64,000 bases of DNA, taken from Miltoncostaea marina. Its GTDB lineage: Bacteria > Actinomycetota > Thermoleophilia > Miltoncostaeales > Miltoncostaeaceae. The notes under the pieces are model-generated. The model was not told where the DNA came from. It saw only the letters and a program-made list of their open reading frames with translations, and did not search any database. Each line of letters opens with the position of its first letter. Within the stretch, counting starts at the first letter, position 1. The stretch lies in contig NZ_CP064655.1 of assembly GCF_018141525.1 (NCBI RefSeq), positions 62,001-126,000 of the forward strand, read 5' to 3'. The position numbers were made by a program, and so were the translations under genes. This document shows positions 16,710 through 30,932 of the stretch, piece by piece.

Positions 16710-16739
16710 CGCCCGCCGTCGCGGGCGCCCGGGGCGTCA
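16707..16739. terminator. Bidirectional hairpin between wecB and methyltransferase
   Basis: TGACGCCC (16707-16714) pairs with GGGCGTCA (16732-16739). An alternative inner hairpin is GCCCGC/GCGGGC (16711-16716 and 16721-16726). It overlaps both stop codons of the convergent genes. There is no T-tract. Confidence 0.5.
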
Positions 16740-17501
16740 GGCCGGGCCGGGCGGCCTGCGCGTCGCGAGCACGCCGATGAAGTGCGCGTGGCGCGGGAAG
16801 CGGCGGGCGAGCGCCCTCGCCGTCCGTCCCGGCGCGGGGTGGAAGCCGCTCGCGAAGGTCCGGGCGACCTCGAAGCCGTGCGCCTCGAAGATCGCGCAGA
16901 GGCCGTCGAGCGTCAGGACCCGGGTGTGCAGCCACGAGGCGCCGTGCTCGGGGGGCTCGCCGAGATGGAGCGCGAGCGGGTTGCCGATGTTGCCTCGCTC
17001 GCTGACGTTCGTCAGCGAGAACGGCATCCAGCCGGCGGCGAGCGCCGCGACGTTGTGCCAGCTCGCGAGGTTCTCGGTGCAGACGAGCGCCTGCCCGCCG
17101 GGCCGGAGGACGCGCCCGATCTCGCTCACGAAGTGATCGAGCCGGTCGACGTGCTCGATGACCTGGTTCGCGTGGACCAGGTCGAAGGACTCGTCGTCGA
17201 ACGGCCAGCGCTCGTCGAGGTCGCCGGGCCGGACGTCGAAGCCGCGCGCCCGGGCCAGCTCCCGTCGCTCGTCGACGATCTCGATGCCCGAGACCCGCTC
17301 GGGGGCGAAGCCGCCGCTCGACGCGACGCGCGAGGTCCACTCGCCGTCGTCGCAGCCCACGTCCAGCATGGCGGCGCCGGGCCGCCTCGGCACGAGGTCG
17401 AGGATCTGCTGCCGATACGAGCGCTCGGCGTCGTCCCACATCCGCTCCATCCAGCGGCGGAGCGCCGCGCGCGGCTCGATCGATCGCTGGGTGGCCGTCA
17501 C
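16737..17501 (-). CDS. SAM-dependent methyltransferase (class I)
   Basis: A 254-residue methyltransferase: motif I MLDVGCDDGEWTSRV (about residues 44-58), IEIVDERRELARARG, then DLVHANQVIEHVDRLD and GRVLRPGGQALVC. The C-terminal third is typical of enzymes found in surface-glycan loci, but the substrate is unknown. The gene is monocistronic, convergent with wecB. GTG at 17501 is used because TACACT ends 8 nt upstream, fitting the leaderless pattern here. Confidence 0.85.
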   Translation of the reverse strand: MTATQRSIEPRAALRRWMERMWDDAERSYRQQILDLVPRRPGAAMLDVGCDDGEWTSRVASSGGFAPERVSGIEIVDERRELARARGFDVRPGDLDERWPFDDESFDLVHANQVIEHVDRLDHFVSEIGRVLRPGGQALVCTENLASWHNVAALAAGWMPFSLTNVSERGNIGNPLALHLGEPPEHGASWLHTRVLTLDGLCAIFEAHGFEVARTFASGFHPAPGRTARALARRFPRHAHFIGVLATRRPPGPA

Positions 17502-17509
17502 GGCGCGGG

Positions 17510-17515
17510 AGTGTA
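17510..17515 (-). promoter_or_regulatory. -10 element for the methyltransferase
   Basis: TACACT on the minus strand, 8 nt before GTG 17501; no Shine-Dalgarno site lies between. Confidence 0.45.
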
Positions 17516-17545
17516 CGCGATGCGCTCGCGCGGCACGGCGGGCGC

Positions 17546-18346
17546 CTACACCGACCGCAACCGCAGCGAGGGCACCAGCACGGCCGCCTCCCAGACGATG
17601 CGCCCGGACATCTTCGACGTGCCGGCCGTGCGCTCGGTGAACGTGATCGGCACCTCGGCCACGCGCCGTCCCCGGCGCAGCGCCCGGTACGTCATCTCGA
17701 TCTGGAAGCCGTACCCGGCGGCGTTCACCTCGTCCAGGGGGATCTCCTCGAGCACCGCGCGGCGGAAGCACTTGAAGCCGCTCGTCAGGTCCTCGACGTG
17801 GACGCCCAGCACGACCTTCGCGTAGACGCAGCCGAAGCGGCTGATCGCGCGCCGGGGCAGGCTCCAGTCGGTCACCCGGCCGCCCGGGACGTAGCGCGAG
17901 CCGATCACCACGTCCGCGTCGGCCGCCGCCGCGATCAGCGACGGCAGCGCCGCCGGGTCGTGCGAGAAGTCGCAGTCCATCTCCACCAGCAGCTCGGCGC
18001 CCTGCGCCATGGCGTGCCGGAACGCGGCCCGGTAGGCCGGCCCGAGGCCCTCCTTGCGCGGCCGGTGCAGCACGCGCACGTTCGGGTGGCGGTCGGCCAG
18101 CCCGTCGGCGAGCCGCCCGGTGCCGTCGGGCGAGCCGTCGTCGGCCACGAGCACGTGGCCGTCGATGCCCGCCCCGGCCATCACGGCGAGCACCGCCTCG
18201 ACGAAGCGCTCCACGTTCTCGGCCTCGTTGTAGGTCGGCACGCAGACCCACACGGGGCCCGCCGGGGGGCGCGGCCGCGGCTGCGTCAGCGGCGTCGGGG
18301 GGTCGGCTGCGGCACGGCGGGCGATGGTACCCGAGGCCGTCGCCAC
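17546..18346 (-). CDS. Polyprenol-phosphate glycosyltransferase, DPM1-like GT2
   Basis: A 266-residue GT2 enzyme of the dolichol-phosphate mannosyltransferase group, which would load a sugar on polyprenyl phosphate at the inner face of the membrane. Motifs: CVPTYNEAENVERFV, VADDGSPDGTG, VEMDCDFSHDPAALP (DXD), GSRYVPGGRV, LTSGFKCFRRAVL, AGYGFQIEMTYRAL and the C-terminal GTSKMSGRIVWEA. There is no C-terminal membrane domain, as in the soluble bacterial forms. Closely similar to 41347-42147. The first 30 or so residues are Pro/Ala-rich and the GTG at 18346 is the likeliest start. It could supply GT-C enzymes such as 7515-9092. Confidence 0.88.
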   Translation of the reverse strand: MATASGTIARRAAADPPTPLTQPRPRPPAGPVWVCVPTYNEAENVERFVEAVLAVMAGAGIDGHVLVADDGSPDGTGRLADGLADRHPNVRVLHRPRKEGLGPAYRAAFRHAMAQGAELLVEMDCDFSHDPAALPSLIAAAADADVVIGSRYVPGGRVTDWSLPRRAISRFGCVYAKVVLGVHVEDLTSGFKCFRRAVLEEIPLDEVNAAGYGFQIEMTYRALRRGRRVAEVPITFTERTAGTSKMSGRIVWEAAVLVPSLRLRSV

Positions 18347-18349
18347 CCG

Positions 18350-18355
18350 TAGACT
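18350..18355 (+). promoter_or_regulatory. -10 element of rmlC-like gene
   Basis: TAGACT ends 7 nt before the GTG at 18363, consistent with a leaderless transcript. Confidence 0.5.
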
Positions 18356-18362
18356 CGCGCCC

Positions 18363-18920
18363 GTGCGACGCGTGGAGTCCGGCATCCCGGGGCTGGTGAT
18401 CCTCGAGCCGACCGTCCACGCGGATGAGCGCGGCTTCTTCGTCGAGACGTACCGCCAGTCGCTGGCGGACGAGGCCGGGGTCGGCGGGCCGTGGGTGCAG
18501 GAGAACCACGCCCGCTCCGTGCGCGGCGTGCTGCGGGGGATGCACTTCTCCGTCGATCCGGGCCAGGCGAAGCTCGTGCGGTGCGCGCGCGGGCGGGTGC
18601 TGGACGTGGCGGTCGACCTGCGCAGGGGGTCGCCGGCGTTCGGGCGATGGCAGGCGGTGGAGCTCGACGACGCGTCCGCCCGCATGGTCCACGTGCCCGC
18701 GGGCCTCGCGCACGGCTACTACGTGCTCAGCGACGTCGCGGACGTCGTCTACAAGTGCTCCGAGTACTACGACCCCGCCAAGGAGCGGGCGATCGCCTGG
18801 GACGACCCGGACGTGGCCATCGCCTGGCCCGGGGGCGAGCGGATCGTCTCGGACCGCGACCGCGCCGCCCCGCGGCTGGCCGACGTCGCCGGCGAGCTGC
18901 CGTTCGCCTACGCGGGCTGA
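18363..18920 (+). CDS. rmlC: dTDP-4-dehydrorhamnose 3,5-epimerase family protein
   Basis: A 185-residue cupin of the RmlC family, which epimerises dTDP-4-keto-6-deoxy-hexoses on the way to dTDP-L-rhamnose or related sugars. Signature elements: ADERGFFVETYR (about residues 22-33), SVRGVLRGMHFS with the catalytic His, GRVLDVAVDLRRGSPAFG, and HVPAGLAHGYYVLSD followed by YKCSEYYDP with the conserved Tyr. Length is normal. No rmlA, rmlB or rmlD lies in the window, so rhamnose is likely but a different 6-deoxy sugar is possible. The gene starts 7 nt after TAGACT. Its 3' end overlaps the convergent GT4 gene by 13 bp. Confidence 0.85.
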   Translation: MRRVESGIPGLVILEPTVHADERGFFVETYRQSLADEAGVGGPWVQENHARSVRGVLRGMHFSVDPGQAKLVRCARGRVLDVAVDLRRGSPAFGRWQAVELDDASARMVHVPAGLAHGYYVLSDVADVVYKCSEYYDPAKERAIAWDDPDVAIAWPGGERIVSDRDRAAPRLADVAGELPFAYAG

Positions 18921-20017
18921 CGCCCCGCGACGACCTCGCACAGCCGCAGGTAGGCGTCGGCGCAGGCGTCCCAGGAGTAGCGCTCCGCCGCCCGGGCGGC
19001 GGCGCGGCCGCCGAGGTCCGTCCGGCGCGCCCCGTCGCCGATCAGCGCCCCGAGCGCCTCGGCGAGCGCCCCCGCCCGGCCGGTCAGCGGGAACGTCGCC
19101 GCCGCGTCGCCGACCACCTCGAGGTTCGGCGCGTGGTCGCTCACCAGCAGCGGCGCGCCGGCCGCCATGGCCTCGACGATCACCGGGTGGGTGCCGCCGA
19201 CCTCGGTCGGCGCGCACATCACGCCGCAGCGGTGCACCAGCTCGCGGTAGCCGTCGCCGAAGACGTAGCCCGGGAAGCGCACGTCCGGGCCGGCGGCCGC
19301 GCGCAGCCGGGCGATGTAGTCCTCGGCGTACGGGGCGTCGCCCACCACCACCAGCGGCCAGTCCGTCCCGAGGCGCCGGTGGGCCTCCACCAGCAGGTGC
19401 GCGTTGTTCTCGGGCACCAGGCGGCCCACGAACAGCACGAAGCGGCCCGGCTCGAGGCCGAGGCGCGCGCACTGGCCGGCGTCGCCGGGGTCGGGCATCT
19501 CGGCGCCGTACGGGATCCACGGGATGCGCCGGCCGTAGCGGCGCTCGTACGCGTCGGCCACGGCGGCCGAGTCGGTGACCGCGATCGTGGCCGCGGCGGG
19601 CGCGAGCCGCTCGGCCAGCCGCAGGTACGCCTTCGCCGGGCCGGACCACTTCGCCCGCTCCGAGTCGAGGCCGTCGATCTGCAGCACCGACGGCACCCCC
19701 GCCAGGCGCGCGAGCGCCGCCCCCGGCGCGTTGCCCGCGATGAAGTAGAGCGCCACGTCCGGCCGCGCCCGCGTCGCCATGTGGACGGTGCTGACCAGCG
19801 TGTGGGCCAGCGTGTCGAGGTGCTTCGAGCGCACCGTCGGCAGGTGCACCAGCCGGGCGCCCGCGTGGGTGGCGCGACGCTCGGTCATGTGCGGGCGGCA
19901 GTAGACGGTCACCTCGTGCCCGCGGGCGCTGAAGCGCCCGGCCAGGTGCTCGACCGCCGTCTCGAAGCCGCTGTACGCGGCCGGGATGCCGCGGGTGCCC
20001 AGCATCGCGATCCTCAC
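18908..20017 (-). CDS. Glycosyltransferase family 4
   Basis: A 369-residue GT-B enzyme. It begins with LGTRGIPAAYSGFETAVEHL (about residues 6-25), a pattern typical of rhamnosyl- or other deoxyhexosyltransferases of the WsaF/Cps type. The donor half has LFVGRLVPENNAHLLVEAH, VGDAPYAEDYIARL and PTEVGGTHPVIVEAMAAG (EX7E variant). It is the last gene of a three-GT4 operon reading from 22289, with GTGA overlap to the upstream gene. A rhamnosyltransferase role next to rmlC is tempting but unproven. Confidence 0.87.
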   Translation of the reverse strand: MRIAMLGTRGIPAAYSGFETAVEHLAGRFSARGHEVTVYCRPHMTERRATHAGARLVHLPTVRSKHLDTLAHTLVSTVHMATRARPDVALYFIAGNAPGAALARLAGVPSVLQIDGLDSERAKWSGPAKAYLRLAERLAPAAATIAVTDSAAVADAYERRYGRRIPWIPYGAEMPDPGDAGQCARLGLEPGRFVLFVGRLVPENNAHLLVEAHRRLGTDWPLVVVGDAPYAEDYIARLRAAAGPDVRFPGYVFGDGYRELVHRCGVMCAPTEVGGTHPVIVEAMAAGAPLLVSDHAPNLEVVGDAAATFPLTGRAGALAEALGALIGDGARRTDLGGRAAARAAERYSWDACADAYLRLCEVVAGRQPA

Positions 20018-21195
20018 GCGGCGCCCCCGCCCCCGCCCCAGCCCCCGCCCCAGCCCGCGCCCGCGCCCCTGCTCGCGCCCCCGCCCCGCCCGGCACCGGG
20101 GCCGGGGCCGAGCGCCTCGGCCACCGCCGCCCACGCCGCCCGGCCCATCGCCGCCTGGCTGTAGGCGGCCGCCCGCTCCGGTCCCATCGCGCGCAGCCGC
20201 CCGGCCACCCCGGGGTCGAGGGCCAGCGTGAGCCCGTCGGCGATGCCCCGCGCCGACGGCTCGGTCAGCACTGCGGCGCCCCCGGTCACCTCGGGCAGCG
20301 CCCCGCGGTCGCTCGCCACCACCGGGCTCCCGCAGGCCATCGCCTCGACCGCCGGCAGCCCGAAGCCCTCGTAGAGCGAGGGGTACGCGGTCACCGCCGC
20401 CGCCCGGTAGAGGTCCGCGAGCGTCGCGTCATCGACGTGCCCCAGCCACCGCCCGCCCGACTGGGCCGCGATGCGCTCGCCGCCCGGCCCGGGTTTGCCC
20501 ACCAGCGCCAGCTCGAGCTCGGTCCCGCGGGCCCGCACCGCCCGCACCGCGTCGCCGAGCGCGCCGAGGTTCTTGCGCGGCCCCAGGTCGCCGACCGCCA
20601 GGCAGTAGCGGCCCAGGCCGAAGCGCGCCGCCACCCGCGCCGCGGCGCCGCCGGCGTCGCCCGGGTCCTCCGGCGTGAAGACCGGTGCCGGGTGCGGGCT
20701 CACCACCCGCAGCTTGTGCTCCGGCAGGCGCAGGGCGCGCGCGACGTCCGCGGCGGCGGTGGCCGACAGGGCGAGCACGACGCGCGCCCTGCGCGCCGAG
20801 CGCGGCACCAGCCCGCGCAGGACCGCCCGGGCCCGCGCGCCGAGCCACTGCGGGTCGGTCATGAAGGTCGCGTCGTGCACGGCCAGCAGCACCGGGCACG
20901 GGCACCAGCCGGGCGACACGTAGGTGAACACGGCCGCGTCCGCCGCCAGGTCGGCCAGGGCCCGCGGGGCGGCGCGCGCCAGCCGCGCGACGTCGTTGGC
21001 GGGCACGCCGACCGTGCGGCCGAAGCGCTCGAGCGCCCGCGCCCCCTCGGGCGTCGCCACCAGCGCGGCCACGGCGTCGCCGTCGGGCGCCGTCGCGGCC
21101 ATCGCCGCCAGCAGCGTCGCCGCGTAGCGCGCGTTGCCGGCGTCGCCGGCGGCGGCCTGCCCGACCATGTGGCAGTCGATCGCGACCAGGCTCAT
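20014..21195 (-). CDS. Glycosyltransferase family 4 with Gly-rich tail
   Basis: A 393-residue GT-B enzyme. [17 protein letters not shown] and [16 protein letters not shown] are features of mannosyltransferase-like GT4 proteins. The donor half has [31 protein letters not shown] and the EX7E motif [18 protein letters not shown]. The last 31 or so residues are a Gly/Ala low-complexity tail encoded by a C-rich repeat (20018-20103 on the plus strand), not part of the catalytic fold. ATGA overlap with the upstream gene and GTGA with the downstream gene show one operon. Confidence 0.87.
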
Positions 21196-22289
21196 CCCCG
21201 GGCGGCCTCGCGGTGCGCCGCCACGACCGCCCGCGCGGTGGCCTGCCACGAGAAGGCCGCGGCGCGCGCCCGGCCGGCCTCGCCGCGGCGCGCCCGCTCC
21301 GCCGCGTCGCCCGCCAGGCGCGCGATCGCCCGCGCCCAGGGGGCCGGGTCGGCGACCGGCAGGTACTCGGCCGCGGCCCCGCCGACCTCCCGCAGCGCCG
21401 GCGTGTCGGACGCGAGCACCGGCACGCCGGCGGTCATGGCCTCCAGCACGGGCAGGCCGAAGCCCTCCTTGCGCGAGGGCACCAGCACCGCCGCCGCGCC
21501 CGCCCGCAGCGCCGCCAGGCGCCCTGCCGGGACGAGGCCGAGCCAGTCCACCCGCCCCGCCGCGCCCACCCGCGCGGCGTGGCCGCGCAGCCGGGCCGCC
21601 CGCCGCGCGGACCAGGGGCCGGTCATGACGAGGCGCACGCCCGGGTCGGTCGCCGCGATCGCCTCGAGCGCCAGCGCCGCGTTCTTGTGCGGCTCGATCG
21701 CGCTCGCGTAGAGCACGTAGGGCCCCGCGGGCGCCGGCCCCTCGGGCGCCGCGGCCGGGGGCGCCGCGAGCGGCACCACGCGCACCCGCCCGGGGTCCAC
21801 GCCGGCCAGCCGCACGACGTCGTCCGCCGTCTCGCCGGAGGGCACGATCACGAGCGTCGCCTGGCGCAGCCGCCGCTCGAACCGGCGGTAGGCGACGGCC
21901 TGCGCCGCGCGGCCCGGCCCGCCGAGGTACTCCGGCCAGAAGGCCGCCGGGATCATGTCGTAGCAGCTGACCACGGTCCTGCCGGCGGGCACGAGGCTCG
22001 GCTGCGTCGCGTGGAACACCGCGCCCCCGGCGGCCGCCCGCGCCACGCGCTCGCCCCGCGTCGCCGGCCAGGGGTCGGGGATGCGGTGGAGCGGCCACGC
22101 CGGCCACCGCACCGCGCGGGCCGCGAACCCCTCCGGGACCGGCTGCCCCTCCCGCACGAGCAGCCGCGGTCGCTCGCCCTCGGGGAGGGCGCGCAGGCCG
22201 CCGAGCAGCCCCCGGAGGGCGGCGCCGATGCCGCGATCCGAGTGGCCGCCCGCGAGCGGCGTGGCGTCGAGCAGGGCCGGGGCGGGCAT
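21192..22289 (-). CDS. Glycosyltransferase family 4
   Basis: A 365-residue GT-B enzyme, first of the three-gene operon. Motifs: [20 protein letters not shown] at the N-terminus (start-side motif common in mannosyl or fucosyl GT4 enzymes), [36 protein letters not shown] and the EX7E motif [18 protein letters not shown]. The ATG at 22289 is the only sensible start. A TAGGCT lies 10 nt upstream, slightly farther than the leaderless spacing seen elsewhere. Donor and acceptor are unknown. Confidence 0.87.
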
Positions 22290-22338
22290 CGGGCGCGACA
22301 GCCTACTCGCCGGCCCGCTCGCCCCGCGGCAGCGGCGG

Positions 22339-24738
22339 TCAGGACACGCGCACCCGGATGACCGGCGAGCGCGCCTGCTGCAGCGGCCAGCCCACCTCGG
22401 TCGGCACGGTGACGCGCATCGGGTGGGTGAGCCCGCCGACGGCGAACGACCACGGGATCGCGAAGGTGCCGTCGCGGCGGACGCGGGCGTTGACCACCGG
22501 CCGCCACGTGCGGCGGATGGGGTCGAGCCACTCGAGCACCACGCCCTTGCGCGCCCCGTACCCCAGCGCTCGCGGCGCCGGCGTGATGCGGCCGGTGAAG
22601 AGCACCCGGCCCCCGACCGCGACGCCCGTCGCCGAGGCGGCCACGGACAGGCGTGGCCGCACGTCGAGGCGGACGTCGGCGCCCGGCCGCTCCGGCAGCA
22701 GCTCGCGGCCGACGGGCACCCCGATCCGCAGCGGCCCGCCCGCGAGGGGGCGCGCCAGGAGGGCGAAGCCGCCCCGGGCGCCCGTGAGGGCGCGGGCCAC
22801 GACGCGGCCACGGTGGCCGCGGGCCTGCACGTCCGCGCCCGCGATCGGCTGCCCGCCCCGGTCGGTCAGCGTGCCGGTGATCCGCACCGCGCCGCCCGCG
22901 GTCAGCCGGCGGACCAGGAGGGTGCGGCCGTCGCGGCGGACGGCCCGCGCGCCCTGGACCGCGACGCGCAGGCGCGCCGACCGCAGGCGGGCCGCGGGAT
23001 CGGGCGCGCCCGCCGCCGTCGCGCCGGCCGCGAGGCGGACGCTCTCGCCGCGGGTGGCCTCGTTGCCGGCGCGGTCCGTGATCACGAGGCGCAGCGCGCG
23101 CTCGCCGGGCGGCAGGGCGGAGGCGTCCACGCTCAGCGCGTCGGCCCCGTCGCGGCTCGGCGTCGCGGCCAGCGTGCGCCAGGCGTCGCCGTCGCGCCAC
23201 TGCAGCCGGGCGGCCGCCACGCCGGAGTGCTCGTCGTCGGCGGTCCACGCGACCGCCAGCTGGCCGTCGGCGCCGGCGGACGCCGTGAGCCGCGCGATGG
23301 AGGGCCGGACGGCGTCGACGCTCAGCACGACGCGGCGCTCCGCCGCGAGCGAGGCGCCGAAGGCGCCCCCGTTGCGGGCGACGATGCGGACCGCGTGGCG
23401 CCCCGCCGCCAGCCCGGAGAGGTCGATCGGCACGACCCGTCGCCCCGCCGACCCGGCCGACGCCGCCCGCCGGAGCCAGATGCCGCCATCGCCGCCGTCG
23501 GCGGCGGCGTTCACGTCGATCTCGACCGGCCCGACGCCGAGCTCCGACTGGAGGTTGTCGGTGACCGTCAGATCGATCTCCGCCCGCCGCAACCAGCCCG
23601 CGCCGCCGCCGTGGACCTCGAGCGCCGGCGGGGTGGTGTCGACGACCACCCCCGCCGCGCCGGCCGCCACGCCGGTGTTGCCCGCGACGTCGGTCGTCCG
23701 GACCCGCCACGCGTGGAGGCCGTCGGCGATCCCGGCGGCGCGCGCGCTGACCGATCGCGGGCCGGCGCCGCCGGCGGGGCCGACCTGGGTCCACGCGCCC
23801 GCGGTGGAGCCGTCGGGCGCCGCGTTGAGCTCGAGCGCGCCGGCGGCGACGCCCGAGAGGTCGTCGGCGGCCGTCCACGACGCGGCCACCACGCCGGGGG
23901 CGCCCGGCGCCGTGGCCGTGGCGCCGCTCGCCGATGGCGGCGTGCGGTCGATGTGGACCGTGCCGTGCGCGGCGCCCCCGGCCGTCCCGTCGCCGTCCAC
24001 CTCCACGGCGACGGCGTGGGTGCCGTCGGGGAGGCCGTCGAGCGGCAGCTCGACCGCGTGGTCGCCCGCACCCGGGGCGCCGCTCCACCGCGGCTGCCCC
24101 GCGACCACCACGCGCTGGGGGCCCATGCCGTCCGCGCCGAAGTTGTCCGCCGCCGTCCATTCGACCCGCATACGCGAGCCCGCGTTGAGCCAGCCGCCGC
24201 TCAGCGCGCGCAGCGCGACGCCCGGGGCGGTCACGTCGCGCACCAGCACGCCGGGCCCGTCGATGAAGTAGCCGCGCGCGTGCTGGTTGCGCCGCTCGAC
24301 CTGGCGCAGCGCGAGGTGCACGTTGCACTGGCCGCCGGGCAGGCCGACCGAGTACGCGCGCCCGCCGGCCGGCGACTGCGGCATCGCGGCGTCGCCCTCG
24401 GACCAGAGGACGCGGCGGTCGCCCGTGACCTCGATCGCCATCGAGCTCGGCGCCTGCGTGCGCAGGGCGCTGAAGCGCACGACGGCGATCTCCGATCCCG
24501 GGACCGGGCAGCCCCAGTTCATCTCCCAGTGGTTGACGTCGGCGGCGGGGGACAGCGCGGGGCCCTGCACCAGCCACTCGGGCCCGGGGAGCACCGTCGC
24601 GCCGAACTGGCCGCTCGTCGACCAGATCGAGGCGCCGTACGGGTAGAGGTTGCCCTCCGTCGCGGCGGAGGGCGCGACGGCCACGACGAGGGCGGTGGCG
24701 GTCAGGGCGGCGATCAGGATGCGACGCGGGCGCTTCAC
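22339..24738 (-). CDS. Secreted protein with Ig-like/fibronectin-like repeats
   Basis: A 799-residue protein with a Sec signal peptide ([18 protein letters not shown], cleavage after about residue 27, APSAA). Residues 28-180 form a domain with Cys in NWGCPVPGS and GGQCNVHL. Then come four or so beta-sandwich repeats, each opening with a Thr/Pro-Pro or Ala-Pro junction ([37 protein letters not shown]), and two C-terminal domains of a carboxypeptidase-regulatory or Ig type ([31 protein letters not shown]). There is no LPXTG or terminal anchor. The GTG overlaps the stop of the sigma-factor gene, so the two are co-expressed. It may be a surface adhesin or a protein displayed with the glycan; no enzymatic motif is seen. 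Confidence 0.8.
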
Positions 24739-25997
24739 GGTCCGAACTCCAGGGCGACGGCTGACGGTGAGGGTGCGGCAGGCGGCGCGGGCGCCGGCGG
24801 GGGCGTCGCGTGTGCCGAATGCGAGCGGGCCGGCGCCGGCGCGCGCGGTGCCGCGACGGCGACCACGGGCGCGGCGCGCCGGGCGGGCGCCCTGCGGACG
24901 GCGGCCCGCGCGCGCGCGTGGGTCGGCGCCGGCCGCGCCCGCCGGGGCTGCGCCCGGGCGGGCGCCGGGGCGCTCCGGGCGGCGGCGGGCCGCGTCGCCG
25001 CCGACGGAGCGGGCGGGGCCTCGGCGATCCGCTCCACCGTCACGGCGGACGGTCGCGAGGGCGCCGGGCGCACGGCGTCCGCGACGACCGGGGCCCCGGC
25101 CACGCCCGCGACCGCGAGCGCGGCCGTGCCCGCCCCGACCTTGGCCAGCGCGGTGCCCGGCAGCTCCATGGCGGTCTGGATGGCGGTGCCCGCCCGCACG
25201 GTGGCGCCGCCGGCGAGCCGGTCCCACCAGGCGAGCGCGGGCGTCGGGTCGGGCACGCCGGAGAGCGCGCCCCCGCCGACCAGCGCGACCGGCACCAGGC
25301 CCGCCATCCACTCGTTCGACGCCCGGCGGTCGCGCAGGACGGCGCGGCAGGCGCCGCAGTGGCGCACGTGGCGCGACACCGTCCGGCGCTCCTTGGCGGT
25401 CGCCTCGCCGGTCGCCACCCGGGCGATCGCGCCGTCCAGCCGCAGGCAGGCCTCGCCCTCGGCGAGCCGCACCTCCCAGGCCGACAGGCTCGCCCGCCCC
25501 TCGAGGATCGAGCGCTCGACCTTGCGCAGCGAGTAGCCCGTGATCTGGTGGATGCGCTCGTAGCTGACGCCGGCGCTGCGGAAGAGCAGGCAGACCCGCT
25601 GCGCCTCCGTGAGCCCGGCCAGGCCGTCCTGGATCGCGCGGTACCGCTCCCGCCACTCCGCGAGCGCGTCCACCGGCACGGCGTCCTCCAGGCGGTCCCC
25701 GTAGGCCTCGGGGACGTCCGCCTCGGCGCCGGGGCCCTCGCGCCGCCGCGCCCGGCTCACCGCCAGCGCCTCGTGGCGCAGCACCGTGTGGAGCCACGCC
25801 ATGAAGCGGCGGGGCTCGGTGACCGGCGCCCGCGTGAGGGCGATCTCCATCGCGCGCTGGTACGCGTCCTCGGCGTCGTGCAGCGAGCGCGTGAAGCGGC
25901 TGGCGAAGCGGATCAGGCCCGGCGCGGAGGCCATCGCGGCGCAGGCGGCGCGGCGGCGGTCGTCGTCGGTGGGTGGCGGTGTGCGGTCGTCGGTCAT
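24735..25997 (-). CDS. ECF-type sigma factor with fused anti-sigma-like and membrane regions
   Basis: A 420-residue protein. Sigma region 2 occupies about residues 25-85 (FTRSLHDAEDAYQRAMEIAL, FMAWLHTVLRHEALAV). Region 4 occupies about 125-170 (GLTEAQRVCLLFRSAGVSYE, TGYSLRKVERSI). Residues 180-220 include a ZAS-like H-X3-C-X2-C (HVRHCGAC), normally found in separate anti-sigma factors. A hydrophobic segment near residues 270-290 is probably a membrane span, followed by about 130 Pro/Ala/Arg-rich residues. A plain ECF factor is about 190 residues. The gene is divergent from a thioesterase and overlaps the Ig-like protein gene by four bases. A five-codon upstream ORF (MTEPQ) ends inside the start codon region. 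Confidence 0.82.
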   Translation of the reverse strand: MTDDRTPPPTDDDRRRAACAAMASAPGLIRFASRFTRSLHDAEDAYQRAMEIALTRAPVTEPRRFMAWLHTVLRHEALAVSRARRREGPGAEADVPEAYGDRLEDAVPVDALAEWRERYRAIQDGLAGLTEAQRVCLLFRSAGVSYERIHQITGYSLRKVERSILEGRASLSAWEVRLAEGEACLRLDGAIARVATGEATAKERRTVSRHVRHCGACRAVLRDRRASNEWMAGLVPVALVGGGALSGVPDPTPALAWWDRLAGGATVRAGTAIQTAMELPGTALAKVGAGTAALAVAGVAGAPVVADAVRPAPSRPSAVTVERIAEAPPAPSAATRPAAARSAPAPARAQPRRARPAPTHARARAAVRRAPARRAAPVVAVAAPRAPAPARSHSAHATPPPAPAPPAAPSPSAVALEFGP

Positions 25998-26076
25998 TGC
26001 GGCTCGGTCATGGAAAGTTTGCGGTGAACTTGGCAAAAGCTGCAACTGGTCGAACGGACGGCGCGCGCGCCGACCT

Positions 26077-26107
26077 GGACGGGTGAGGGCCCGCGGCCGT
26101 TCTTTCC
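26077..26107 (-). promoter_or_regulatory. Possible ECF-type promoter of the sigma-factor gene
   Basis: On the minus strand GGAAAGAAC (26099-26107) and CCGTCC (26077-26082) are separated by 16 nt, resembling the GGAAC-N16-CGTC layout of ECF promoters. It would give a leader of about 70 nt and allow autoregulation. Single occurrence, so weak. Confidence 0.3.
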
Positions 26108-26181
26108 ACCCCCCCGAGACGGGTGCCCCGCGACGAACGACCCGCAAATTGCGGCGTTCTCCGCGAGGGCGGGCGCGCCGT

Positions 26182-26709: not shown

Positions 26710-27184
26710 ATGGAGCCGCTCAGGTACAGCTGGATCCTGCCCGGGCGCCTGGCGGTCGCCGAGCGGCCGGGGCGGGGCGGCCGCAGCCATCGCCGCGCCC
26801 TGCGCGCGGCCGAGATCGCCTGGTGGCGCGAGCAGGGCGTCGAGGCGGTCGTGTCCGCGATGCGCACCCGGCACGCCCTGGCGGACTACGCGGACGCCGG
26901 CCTCGTCGTGCGGTGGCACCCGCTGCGCGACCCCGCGCAGGCACGGGACGAGCTGCACGCGCTGACGCGCTCGGTGCGCGAGCTGCTCGACGAGCCCGGC
27001 GGCGCGGTGCTGGTGCACTGCGACCGCGCGAACGAGTGGCTCGGCGGGGATCGACGCGGCGCTGCGGCTGGCGCTGGGCCTCGCGCGCTCCCGGCGGGCG
27101 GCGCTCCGGGCGGCCGCAGCGGACGGCCTGCCTGTAGGCTCCCTGGCGACGTCGATCGTGGGCCGCCCCATGACGACGGCATGA
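26710..27184 (+). CDS. Dual-specificity-phosphatase-like protein, frameshifted and lacking the catalytic Arg
   Basis: The ATG has a strong GAGGAGG five bases upstream. The first frame reads RYSWILPGRLAVAERPGRGG, then VEAVVSAMRTRHALADYADA, then VLVHCDRANEWLGG. The position of VLVHC matches the P-loop strand of DSP phosphatases, but the HCX5R signature is broken (Trp where Arg belongs). After an extra G in the run 27046-27049 the second frame continues IDAALRLALGLARSRRAALR to a TGA at 27182-27184, matching the helix that follows the P-loop. So the gene is probably one phosphatase-like protein of about 157 residues, inactive in chemistry even if expressed. First gene before a glycan cluster. Confidence 0.6.
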
Positions 27185-27205
27185 CCACCGAGGGGGGCGG
27201 CGCGG

Positions 27206-28447
27206 GTGACCGCTCCGGAGTCGCCCGAGGGGACCGCCCGCATGACCGTCAGACGACCACGCCTCCTGCGCCGCCGCGGCCGATCCGGCGGCGGACCGGC
27301 CGAGGCGGGCCCGCGCGGCCGGCGGACGACCGCGGCCCGGCCCGCCGGTCCGCCGGGCGGGGGCGGCGCTGGCGAGCGCCCGTCGCTCGTGCTGGTGGAC
27401 GGGCGCATGGCGCGGCGCCGCAAGACCGGCATCGGCACCTACATCCACGAGCTGCGGCACGAGATGGAGACGAAGCCGGTCTCGGACCTGCGCGTCGAGT
27501 GGGTCTCGGGTCCCCCCGGGCTGCCGCGGCTCGGCCGGATCACCTCGTGGGGCAACCTGCTGCTCGACGTGCTCTGGCTGCACGTCCTGCTGCCGCTGAT
27601 CGCCTGGCGCCGGCGCGCCGCCGTGCTGCACGCGCCGGTCACGTGGGGCCCGTGGTGGAGCCCCTGCCCGACGGTGGTCACGATGCACGACCTGGCGTGG
27701 GAGCGCGTGCCCGATGCCTTTCCGGAGGGCTTCCGCAGGTACGCGAGGTTCTTCGCGCGGCGCTCGCTGCGCACGGCGACGCGGGTGATCGCGGTGTCGG
27801 AGTCGACGTCGCGCGACCTCCAGGAGCTCTACGGCCTCTCGCCCGAGCGGCTGCGCGTGGTCCCGAACGGCGTCTACCCGGACACGCGCCCGCCCGGGCC
27901 GCGGGAGCCGATCGTGTTGAGCGTGGGCATCCGCGAGCCGCGCAAGCGGATCGGGGTGCTCATCGAGGGGCACGCGCGCTACTACGCCGCGGCCCCCGCC
28001 GACCCGCCGCCCTGCCGCCTCCTGGTGGTCGGCGGACCCGGCGGGGACGAGGAGCACGTCCGCGCGGCGGCCGGGCCGGCGTGCGAGATCCGCGACTTCG
28101 TGCGCCGCGAGGAGCTCCTCGACCTCTACCGGCGGGCGACGCTGCTGGCCTACCCGTCGGCGTACGAGGGCTTCGGTCTGCCGGTGGTCGAGGCGATGGC
28201 GCACGGCTGCCCGGTGCTCTGCGCGCGCAACTCCTCGCTGGTCGAGATCGGCGGGCGCACGGCGCTCTTCCTCGACGAGGACCGGGTCACGCCGGAGGGG
28301 ATCGCCGAGGCGCTGGCGGAGGCGCTCTCGGACCGCGCGGCGCTGCGCGAGCGCGGCGAGGCGGGCCGCGAGGAGGCGGCGCGGTACTCCTGGCCGGCGT
28401 CGGCGACCGCGACCCGCGACGTCTACCGGCAGGCCGTGCGCAGGTGA
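27206..28447 (+). CDS. Glycosyltransferase family 4
   Basis: A 413-residue GT-B enzyme with an unusual 60-residue Arg/Gly/Pro-rich N-terminal extension; the fold starts near SLVLVDGRMARRRKTGIGTY. Motifs: VVTMHDLAWERVPDAFP, VIAVSESTSRDLQELY, LSVGIREPRKRIGVLIEGH and the EX7E motif PSAYEGFGLPVVEAMAHG. These resemble mannosyl- and rhamnosyltransferases of polysaccharide loci. The GTG at 27206 is the first start after the phosphatase-like gene; ATG at 27242 is an alternative. The stop overlaps the methyltransferase start (GTGA). Confidence 0.87.
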   Translation: MTAPESPEGTARMTVRRPRLLRRRGRSGGGPAEAGPRGRRTTAARPAGPPGGGGAGERPSLVLVDGRMARRRKTGIGTYIHELRHEMETKPVSDLRVEWVSGPPGLPRLGRITSWGNLLLDVLWLHVLLPLIAWRRRAAVLHAPVTWGPWWSPCPTVVTMHDLAWERVPDAFPEGFRRYARFFARRSLRTATRVIAVSESTSRDLQELYGLSPERLRVVPNGVYPDTRPPGPREPIVLSVGIREPRKRIGVLIEGHARYYAAAPADPPPCRLLVVGGPGGDEEHVRAAAGPACEIRDFVRREELLDLYRRATLLAYPSAYEGFGLPVVEAMAHGCPVLCARNSSLVEIGGRTALFLDEDRVTPEGIAEALAEALSDRAALRERGEAGREEAARYSWPASATATRDVYRQAVRR

Positions 28448-29304
28448 GCGGCGGCCGGCGCACGCCGGCCTGGGCGCGGCTGATGCTCCACAGCCACCGG
28501 CTCGGCTGGCGGTGGATCGCACGGGCGGCCCGGGCGCGGCGCGGCGGCGGGCACGTGCGCGGCGCGCTCTATCGCGTGCTCGTGCCGCTCGAGCCCTGGC
28601 GCTTCCACGAGCTCGGCCGGGTCGCGGACGAGCGCTTCTGCGGCGCGTGCCTCGACGTGTCGAGCCCGAAGCTGCTGGCGAGCCTCCTGAACGCGGAGGG
28701 CCAGGGGCGCTGGACGGGGATCGACCTCCTGGAGGACGAGATCGAGCTGTGGCGGGCGCTCGACCCGGCGCTCGACCTGCGGGTCGCCGACGCCCGCCGG
28801 CTGCCGTTCGCGGACGCCGCGTTCGACGCGGTGGCGTGCGTCTCGGTGATCGAGCACATCCCTGGCGACGGCGACGTCCGCGCGATGGCGGAGATCTGGC
28901 GCGTGCTGCGCCCGGGCGGCGTCCTGCACCTCACGACGAACGTCGCGGCCCGGCCGGCGGAGGTGCGCACGCCCCGCCCGGTCTACGCCGCGGCGGGGGC
29001 GGCGACCCCGGCGGAGGGCGACGCCGACGACGGGCGCGCGGGCGCCTTCTTCGAGCGTCGCTACGGCCCGGCGACCCTGGACGCCCGGCTGCTGGGGCTG
29101 CCCTGGCGGGAGGAGGCCCGCGAGTACGTCCGCGAGCGGCGCCCGGTGCACGCGCGGTTCTTCGGGGCGCGCCCGCTCTCGTTCCTCGCCGGCAACCTGC
29201 TGCCGCTGGTGGCGGCGCGCAACGTCATCCCGATCGGGGGACCGGCGGAGGTCGGCGGCGCTCCGTTCGGTGTCGTCTACCTGCGATTGCGCAAGCCCGA
29301 CTGA
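28444..29304 (+). CDS. SAM-dependent methyltransferase
   Basis: A 286-residue protein. A basic N-terminal region of about 55 residues is followed by a class I methyltransferase domain in which motif I is degenerate (ACLDVSSPKLLASLLNAEG, without GXGXG). It keeps TGIDLLEDEIELWR, VADARRLPFADAAFDAVACV, SVIEHIPGDGD and WRVLRPGGVLHLTT. The later region RRYGPATLDARLLG is typical of this group. Coupled by overlap to the GT4 gene upstream. The weak motif I could mean altered cofactor binding. Confidence 0.8.
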   Translation: MSGGRRTPAWARLMLHSHRLGWRWIARAARARRGGGHVRGALYRVLVPLEPWRFHELGRVADERFCGACLDVSSPKLLASLLNAEGQGRWTGIDLLEDEIELWRALDPALDLRVADARRLPFADAAFDAVACVSVIEHIPGDGDVRAMAEIWRVLRPGGVLHLTTNVAARPAEVRTPRPVYAAAGAATPAEGDADDGRAGAFFERRYGPATLDARLLGLPWREEAREYVRERRPVHARFFGARPLSFLAGNLLPLVAARNVIPIGGPAEVGGAPFGVVYLRLRKPD

Positions 29305-29342
29305 GCATCGGCGGGGCGCGGACAGTACGATCCGCAGATGCT

Positions 29343-30932
29343 GTGGACGCGACCTCGGCGGCGGTGCGCGGTCCGGAATCCCGCGCGGCGAGCCGTATCG
29401 GTACGGCGGCCCGGGTGACCACCCGGCCCACACGGCACGGCGAGCCGCCCATCGCGACCCCCGCGCCGGACCGCCGGCACGCGCGCCGCGACGCCCGCTT
29501 CCTGCCCCTGCTGTCCGGCCCGGCGGGCGCGGCGGCGGTGCGGCGGGTGCTGTCGGTGGCGGTGCTGGTGACGATCGACGTGACCGCCTGCTTCGCCGGG
29601 GTCTACGCGGCGCTGGCGATCAAGCTGCTCGTGCAGGGGCAGGCGGTCGATTCGGGCGCCATCTGGGCGGTGGAGCAGAAGGCGCTGCCCCTGGCGGCCG
29701 CGACGATGATCCTGGTCTTCGCCAAGAACCGCCTCTACGCGCCGCGCGAGCAGCGCGGCGGCGCGGCGCGGGTGCTGTCGTCGGTGACGCTGTCGACGCT
29801 CGTGGTGCTGGCGGTGACGCTCGTGGCCGGGTGGCGTTTCGACACCTACTACATCTTCTACGCGTCCTGGTTCCTGGTGAGCGTGCTGGTCGTGGCGCTG
29901 CGGGCGAGCTACGACAGCGTGACCGCGCTCGCCCTGGACGCGCTGCGGTTCGAGCGGCGGGCGCTGCTGGTCGGGTCGCCGGCGCTCGTCTCGTCGATCG
30001 CGGCGAGCCTCGAGCGCTCGGAGAGCCGCCAGGGCGTGCCCTACCGGGTGGTCGGCTCGCATCAGCTGATCGCCGGGCTCGGGCGCGAGGGCGCGGGCGG
30101 CGCGGCGGGCGAGCTGCGCCGGGCGCTCGACCCGGAGGCCGTGGACGAGGTGATCCTCACCGGCTGGGCGGGCGACGACGCGCCGGTGCTGGAGCTGCTC
30201 GAGGTGTGCCGCCGGCGCGGCCTGCCGGTGCGGCTCGCGCCCACGACGGCGGAGCTGCTGTCGCACTCGGTGCAGGCCGTGCCGGCCCCGGGCCTGCCGC
30301 TGTTCGAGCTGCGGCCGCCGGTGCTGGGCGGCGCCGCCTTCCTCGCCAAGCGCGCCTTCGACCTGGTGGTGGGCTCGCTGCTCGGCCTGCTGCTGATGCC
30401 GGTGCTCGCGGCGGCCGCGGTGGCGATCCGGCTGGAGGACGGCGGCCCGGTGCTGCACCGCGACCGGCGGGTCGGCGTGGAGGAGCACGAGTTCACCTGC
30501 TTCAAGCTGCGCACGATGCGGGTGGGCGCCCACCTGGAGCAGGACCGGCTCGAGCACGCCAACGAGGCTGACGGCGCCATCTTCAAGATGCGCGCCGACC
30601 CGCGCGTGACCCGGGTGGGCCGGGTGCTGCGGCGGCTGTCGATCGACGAGCTGCCGCAGCTCTGGAACGTCCTGCGCGGCGAGATGTCGCTCGTGGGGCC
30701 GCGGCCGCTGCCGCTACGCGACTACCAGCGGCTGGACGACCTCCACAAGAAGCGATACCTGGTGCTGCCCGGGCTCACCGGGCTGTGGCAGGTGAGCGGC
30801 CGCAGCGAGCTGTCGTTCGACGACCTGGTGCGGCTCGACTTCTATTACATCGAGACGTGGTCGATCTGGCTCGACCTGACGATCATGGCGCGCACGATCC
30901 CGGTGGTGCTGGGCCGCAAGGGTGCCTATTGA
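29343..30932 (+). CDS. Undecaprenyl-phosphate sugar phosphotransferase (polyprenyl glycosylphosphotransferase)
   Basis: A roughly 529-residue initiating enzyme that transfers sugar-1-phosphate from a nucleotide sugar to undecaprenyl phosphate. Four or five N-terminal spans (from VLSVAVLVTIDVTACFAGVY) and a CoA-binding-like central domain precede the PNPT domain: FLAKRAFDLVVGSLLGLLL, CFKLRTMRVGAH, DPRVTRVGRVLRRLSIDELP, QLWNVLRGEMSLVGPRP and LPGLTGLWQVSGRS. It defines this cluster as one that starts a new lipid-linked glycan. The start is uncertain: TACGAT at 29326 sits 6 nt before an out-of-frame ATG; GTG 29343 and GTG 29416 are in frame. Confidence 0.92.
   Translation: MDATSAAVRGPESRAASRIGTAARVTTRPTRHGEPPIATPAPDRRHARRDARFLPLLSGPAGAAAVRRVLSVAVLVTIDVTACFAGVYAALAIKLLVQGQAVDSGAIWAVEQKALPLAAATMILVFAKNRLYAPREQRGGAARVLSSVTLSTLVVLAVTLVAGWRFDTYYIFYASWFLVSVLVVALRASYDSVTALALDALRFERRALLVGSPALVSSIAASLERSESRQGVPYRVVGSHQLIAGLGREGAGGAAGELRRALDPEAVDEVILTGWAGDDAPVLELLEVCRRRGLPVRLAPTTAELLSHSVQAVPAPGLPLFELRPPVLGGAAFLAKRAFDLVVGSLLGLLLMPVLAAAAVAIRLEDGGPVLHRDRRVGVEEHEFTCFKLRTMRVGAHLEQDRLEHANEADGAIFKMRADPRVTRVGRVLRRLSIDELPQLWNVLRGEMSLVGPRPLPLRDYQRLDDLHKKRYLVLPGLTGLWQVSGRSELSFDDLVRLDFYYIETWSIWLDLTIMARTIPVVLGRKGAY

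Follow-up and report, generated by a model that had tools for sequence, protein, structure and literature searches.

One-chain ECF sigma factors of Thermoleophilia often end in a conserved Glu-Phe-x-Pro tag that may dock on a secreted Ig-like partner

Introduction

What would a sigma factor sense if it carried its own anti-sigma domain, a membrane segment and a long tail in one chain, and if its gene overlapped that of a secreted protein? One-chain sigma/anti-sigma sensors have been catalogued, and what their outer ends sense is known just for IutY and, in part, for SCO4117. We analysed a locus that raises this question in a 64,000-nucleotide stretch of Miltoncostaea marina DNA (the window, to which all plain coordinates refer), starting from a sequence-only reading that had picked out the chain and its neighbour.

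Results

The fusion gene encodes sigma and zinc anti-sigma domains in one chain

The fusion gene (P0001) lies on the minus strand at 24735–25997 and encodes 420 residues, from an ATG at 25997 to a TGA stop at 24735–24737. The sequence-only reading had placed it at 24735–26107; the gene itself was correctly located, but the upper bound overshoots, as comparison of homologues backs the ATG at 25997. Sigma region 2 (residues 25–86; 25740–25925, minus strand) matched Pfam PF04542 (Sigma70_r2) above the cut-off at 8.7e-9 and was modelled by AlphaFold2 with pLDDT values mostly >90, and sigma region 4 (residues 120–171; 25485–25640, minus strand) matched PF08281 (Sigma70_r4_2) below the cut-off at 0.02. 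A profile built from an 11-member fusion alignment matched the solved chains of SigE and SigH across both regions, and a chain with regions 2 and 4 but no region 3 is of the ECF (group IV) type. The ZAS-type zinc anti-sigma motif that follows (residues 184–218; 25344–25448, minus strand) matched PF13490 (zf-HC2) at 0.0064, with 17 bits compared to a cut-off of 22.2; it has the H-x3-C-x2-C arrangement together with an upstream ligand, and the complete set of C184, H210, C214 and C217 is invariant in the alignment of 11 homologues. AlphaFold2 models of six sequences had high confidence for most of residues 1 to ~230, showed the tail as disordered, and left the span and tail of the fusion without resolved structure. 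Thus, the domain matches, the invariant zinc ligands, the SigE/SigH profile match, the AlphaFold2 model and the overlap with a gene for a secreted Ig-like protein lead us to regard the fusion as real, and the earlier description of a 420-residue chain with sigma regions 2 and 4, a ZAS motif, a span and a Pro/Ala-rich tail is borne out by Pfam, alignment, AlphaFold2 and hydropathy.

The fusion occurs across Thermoleophilia

A search profile built without the fusion tail was matched at E<=1e-20 in 109 of the 299 Thermoleophilia genomes sampled; among 397 genomes sampled across the phylum, a single weak match fell outside this class. The genome of M. marina itself encodes a single such fusion, and the named relatives that carry it are all Thermoleophilia, including one member of the Miltoncostaeaceae and several Thermoleophilaceae MAGs. 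Sigma, ZAS and span are joined in one chain throughout the class, which agrees with what the sequence-only reading had proposed to look for among homologues. That reading had also named separate sigma and anti-sigma genes in homologues as evidence against its interpretation. Three apparent pairs of this kind were found, and all three trace to insertions by integrative elements; the remaining sigma-only matches resemble stand-alone ECF factors of normal length.

The three interrupted genes are in family-f7 genomes of different genera and are split at the same codon, within the sequence TKVN of the region 4 helix-turn-helix, at a core AC(C/G)AAGGT. The split fusions (L190/L269 in G055, L267/L275 in G183 and L264/L268 in G247) contain elements of about 9, 40 and 18 kb, respectively. 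At its sigma-side junction, each element encodes a large serine integrase (Pfam Resolvase, Recombinase and Zn ribbon; PHROG 95), and the three integrases share just 26–38% identity. The arrangement is reminiscent of the skin element in sigK (PMC5025042), here in an ECF sigma gene.

Fusion tails share a C-terminal tag

The most informative feature of the chain was missing from the sequence-only reading. Among 76 non-redundant complete fusions from Thermoleophilia, 43 end in Glu-Phe-x-Pro (E-F-x-P), mostly as EFGP, compared to 0 of 656 other ORFs of at least 150 residues from the same loci, many of these ORFs being mechanical; in the window, the EFGP tag lies at 24738–24749 on the minus strand. 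The dipeptide EF is present within the last 15 residues of 58 of the 76 fusions and recurs further inside the tails (37 observed versus 3.7 expected), although the fusions are related to one another, so that counts of tags and of partners are of non-independent events. The fusion tails are otherwise freely variable, with a mean length of ~120 residues and with A, P, S, R and G as their prevalent residues. Related tags continue into further residues, as in EFxPGPWNxGG, EFGFEGS and EFTPEGR. A C-terminal EFxP can also be used as a genome marker to find members of the system.

The fusion is coupled to a secreted Ig-like protein

The next gene, P0002 (22339–24738, minus strand; 799 residues), starts with a GTG at 24738, and the fusion stop and the P0002 start overlap by 4 bp as GTGA at 24735–24738, confirming the overlap reported earlier and supporting translational coupling as judged from the gene arrangement. 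P0002 has a signal-peptide-like stretch at its N-terminus and matches to Ig-like and CarboxypepD_reg families just below the Pfam cut-off, and AlphaFold2 models of three sequences were all-beta and multidomain with a mean pLDDT of 66. A structure search with the P0002 model returned nothing more specific than Ig, fibronectin and macroglobulin chains of generic type, with query-normalised TM-scores of about 0.1–0.3, and the model thus gives no function. The N-terminal beta domain of P0002 (about residues 28–170; 24229–24657, minus strand) is a candidate tag-binding part and falls within the stretch that is best conserved in the paralogues described below.

We took as the partner group those secreted proteins that are connected with P0002 by BLAST; representatives matched Big_13 and/or CarboxypepD_reg-like families, many below the cut-off. 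In family f1, the P0002 orthologues whose upstream region could be read (those of 15 relatives and of the window) all stand behind a fusion that ends in LEFGP and has the same 4-bp overlap. A related secreted Ig-like gene is directly downstream of 44 of the 76 fusions. The sequence-only reading had asked whether such a gene is always adjacent; it is not, with adjacency in 19/22 loci of f1, 11/12 of f5 and 7/7 of f10 but only 7/25 of f7 and 0/10 of f9. The tag is retained in 23 fusions that have no adjacent Ig-like gene, most of family f9 among them, and in these it may bind something else. Conversely, nine fusions with an adjacent partner have no EF in the last 15 residues. Where three fusions of family f1 have non-EF tails (GIGMGPGP, GIGVGPGP and ISIGPSGP), the N-terminus of the partner differs too. 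In one genome (G014), no partner adjoins the tagged fusion, and a homologue of the partner (L048) is encoded elsewhere with no tagged neighbour.

A family-f7 subgroup (L114, L115, L123, L124, L145 and L147) has fusions without an EF tail, ending in AEMGLE and other sequences; apart from L123, the next gene found in each codes for a LCFIEPQDAIRVIAESVG-type protein that looks cytosolic.

Related tags occur on tethers that have no sigma domain

Two P0002 paralogues in the M. marina genome and four in two congeners each stand behind an overlapping gene for a single-span, non-sigma protein of ~250 residues that ends in REF[ET]PGPWN. A search of 42 genomes with a DNA pattern for EFxPGPWN gave six sites, exactly the six tethers just upstream of the P0002 paralogues, and the control gave no match. 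A pattern for EFGP followed by a stop gave two sites in the M. marina genome, one being the fusion gene and the other encoding a further single-span protein of 244 residues that has no sigma domain and ends in WLEFGP. These tagged non-sigma proteins, together with the altered partners of the non-EF tails in family f1 and with the arrangement in G014, point to a contact between EF tags and Ig-like partners, as read from sequence comparisons.

At the two paralogue loci of the M. marina genome (L003/L056 at C1:2840755 and L004/L057 at C1:521545), the tether ends in REFEPGPWN and its gene overlaps that of the P0002 paralogue, and a gene for a two-HTH, excisionase-like DNA-binding protein is located divergently upstream of the tether. 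At the locus of the second EFGP protein (L192 2155–3850, near C1:2111374), the gene for that protein is followed, 193 nt downstream, by one for a 255-residue secreted protein.

A proposed docking model and its alternatives

We propose, with about an even chance of being right, that this one-chain, membrane-tethered ECF sigma factor reads the state of its secreted partner through docking of the EF tag, which would block proteolysis. Under this proposal, which takes in the masking as one of its parts, the sigma domain would be membrane-held, with the ZAS domain of the same chain masking it, a single span would carry the disordered tail to the outside, and the E-F-x-P end would dock on the co-translated Ig-like protein and so guard the tether against site-1 cleavage. 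For the direction of the switch and the nature of the signal, we infer that loss or titration of the partner, or its binding to an envelope ligand, would expose the tail, whereupon site-1 and site-2 (M50) proteases would cut the tether and allow the sigma domain to reach RNA polymerase. Shielding and proteolysis are modelled on IutY, which is cut by Prc and then RseP, and on the shielding of FoxR by FoxA. Genes for M50 proteases are present in the M. marina genome and likewise in all 14 control genomes, and are thus compatible with such a pathway.

The EFxP terminus might instead be a recognition tag for an extracytoplasmic protease, either a PDZ-type site-1 enzyme or a tail-specific one, with the Ig-like protein merely a co-expressed product or a target of the sigma factor. 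Such proteases prefer an extreme C-terminus, which is where the tag lies in 43 of the 76 fusions; its persistence in the 23 fusions that lack an adjacent partner, and the fact that Prc makes the first cut in IutY, fit this explanation as well. However, the related tags run on into further residues, EF is repeated inside the tails, and the tagged non-sigma proteins adjoin paralogues of the very same partner, so that we give a protease tag a small but appreciable probability.

A tether rather than a sensor is another interpretation, in which the tail would anchor or display the Ig-like protein on the cell surface and sigma signalling would be a by-product. The EF-tagged non-sigma tethers beside partner paralogues favour this interpretation, as they indicate a tag that functions in chains lacking a sigma domain. 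Sigma and ZAS domains are nevertheless conserved across the class with invariant zinc ligands, which would be superfluous for a mere anchor, and we consider simple anchoring unlikely.

The docking model also depends on the tail being outside, and a second hydrophobic stretch in the chain could place it inside. The fusion has one such stretch immediately after the ZAS motif (residues 230–248; 25254–25310, minus strand; Kyte-Doolittle 1.59) and another ~70 residues past it (residues 287–305; 25083–25139, minus strand; Kyte-Doolittle 1.76). If both crossed the membrane, the tail would be cytoplasmic and the EF tag would act there on the sigma domain or on another protein; the hydrophobicity of the first stretch in the window fusion, and its strong hydrophobicity in one genus (g10), favour this topology. 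The second stretch, however, reaches a Kyte-Doolittle value of at least 1.6 at similar spacing in 65 of 81 homologues, compared to just 23 of 81 for the first, which is probably no span in most homologues. We therefore take the second stretch, weakly hydrophobic in the window fusion yet conserved, as the span, and this assignment would put the Pro/Ala/Arg-rich tail (residues 311–420; 24738–25067, minus strand; pLDDT mostly <50) outside. This placement is supported by seven non-sigma proteins whose tails are of the same type: each has one clear span and a positive-inside bias, with a net charge of +3 to +6 over the 20 residues that precede the span and of 0 to −2 beyond it. The adjacent partner, moreover, is secreted. 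With moderate confidence, then, the tail is predicted to be extracytoplasmic, and a two-span topology appears very unlikely.

A purely DNA-level role for the tag, as a ribosome-binding site for the overlapping gene, is almost certainly wrong as a whole explanation: a Shine-Dalgarno-like GGAG (24747–24750, minus strand) does lie 8 nt ahead of the partner GTG and in overlapping pairs is partly supplied by the E codon of the tag, but EFGP is equally retained in fusions that lack an overlapping gene and have a preceding codon yielding no GGAG, third codon positions vary, and EF also occurs at internal and non-sigma sites, so that selection acts on the tag as a peptide.

The docking model suggests a broader proposal, which we advance tentatively and rate somewhat below an even chance. 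An envelope-sensing system would extend throughout Thermoleophilia, in which secreted Ig-like partners would read short Glu-Phe-x-Pro tags borne outside the cell by single-span tethers, with or without a sigma domain, and transcription would report the assembly state of one family of surface proteins.

The upstream region and the exopolysaccharide neighbourhood

The sequence-only reading had placed a weak ECF-type promoter upstream of the fusion. A candidate sequence does exist at 26077–26107, but a genome search allowing up to 2 mismatches, of the kind proposed with it, gave 3 matches (one of them the sequence itself) compared to 4 for a reversed control. The pattern GAAC-N15-18-CGT was not enriched in 82 upstream regions of homologues (6 observed versus 4.9 expected), and the motif was absent from both same-genus relatives examined; the promoter assignment is thus unsupported. 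Upstream of the fusion, the three congeners (window 26140–26155, L031 and L032) all have a near-palindrome like CCGCAAATTGCGG, imperfect in two of them, which is a possible regulator site.

Genes for exopolysaccharide-type glycosyltransferases and a WcaJ-like sugar transferase flank the locus on both sides (16737–22811, minus strand; 26710–30932, plus strand). A WcaJ-like transferase is encoded within the 20-kb region of 12 of 13 loci in families f1 and f9, compared to 2 of 20 control regions, and at 0 of 27 loci in the other families. A general link to exopolysaccharide fails in f5, f7 and f10, and a polysaccharide-related signal is thus a guess that we confine to f1 and f9.

Comparison with known systems

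In the sigma-E system of E. coli, the secreted co-regulator RseB is encoded beside the membrane tether RseA and guards it from site-1 cleavage. RseB is not Ig-like, and sigma-E and its anti-sigma factor are separate proteins, unlike the window fusion. A similar logic to that proposed for the fusion and its partner operates in Pseudomonas aeruginosa, where the extracytoplasmic domain of FoxA binds the outer part of the anti-sigma factor FoxR and shields it from proteolysis (PMC11637429); there too, sigma and anti-sigma are on separate proteins, and the partner is unrelated to P0002.

The sequence-only reading had considered the one-chain architecture unusual, but this type of chain is already known from ECF48, ECF52, ECF53 and IutY. 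IutY of Pseudomonas putida (ECF243) is a proven one-chain sigma/anti-sigma protein that is activated by proteolysis, by Prc and then RseP (PMC5411451). Like the window fusion, it is a membrane protein that unites a sigma with an anti-sigma part, and its outer part senses via a partner. IutY, however, has a FecR-type outer domain and a TonB-dependent receptor as partner, whereas P0001 gave no Pfam match to a FecR-type domain; its tail is disordered and tagged, and its adjacent partner is Ig-like. ECF48, ECF52 (SCO4117 of Streptomyces coelicolor) and ECF53 combine a sigma factor, a zinc finger (ZAS), one or two transmembrane helices and a long, proline-rich extension, and activation by proteolysis has been proposed for them (PMC8999054, PMC5826349). 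The window fusion likewise unites sigma domain, zinc finger, transmembrane segment and a long proline-rich extension in one chain. Its disordered tail gave no Pfam match of any kind, and hence none to the carbohydrate-binding module that is a C-terminal trait of ECF52, and we therefore do not place it in that group.

In the literature that we searched, mostly non-subscription papers, we found no description of a class-wide EFxP tag, a coupled Ig-like partner or tagged non-sigma tethers, nor of any such system in Thermoleophilia. Compared to known one-chain sigma proteins, these three features appear to be new, and together they define a concrete contact that is open to mutation and testing. 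If the proposal is correct, sigma-factor signalling would gain a new docking principle in this code of tag and partner. Thus, unlike the ECF48, ECF52 and ECF53 proteins as described (PMC8999054, PMC5826349), the window fusion combines a familiar one-chain design with an EFxP terminus that is conserved and with an Ig-like partner encoded by a separate, coupled gene.
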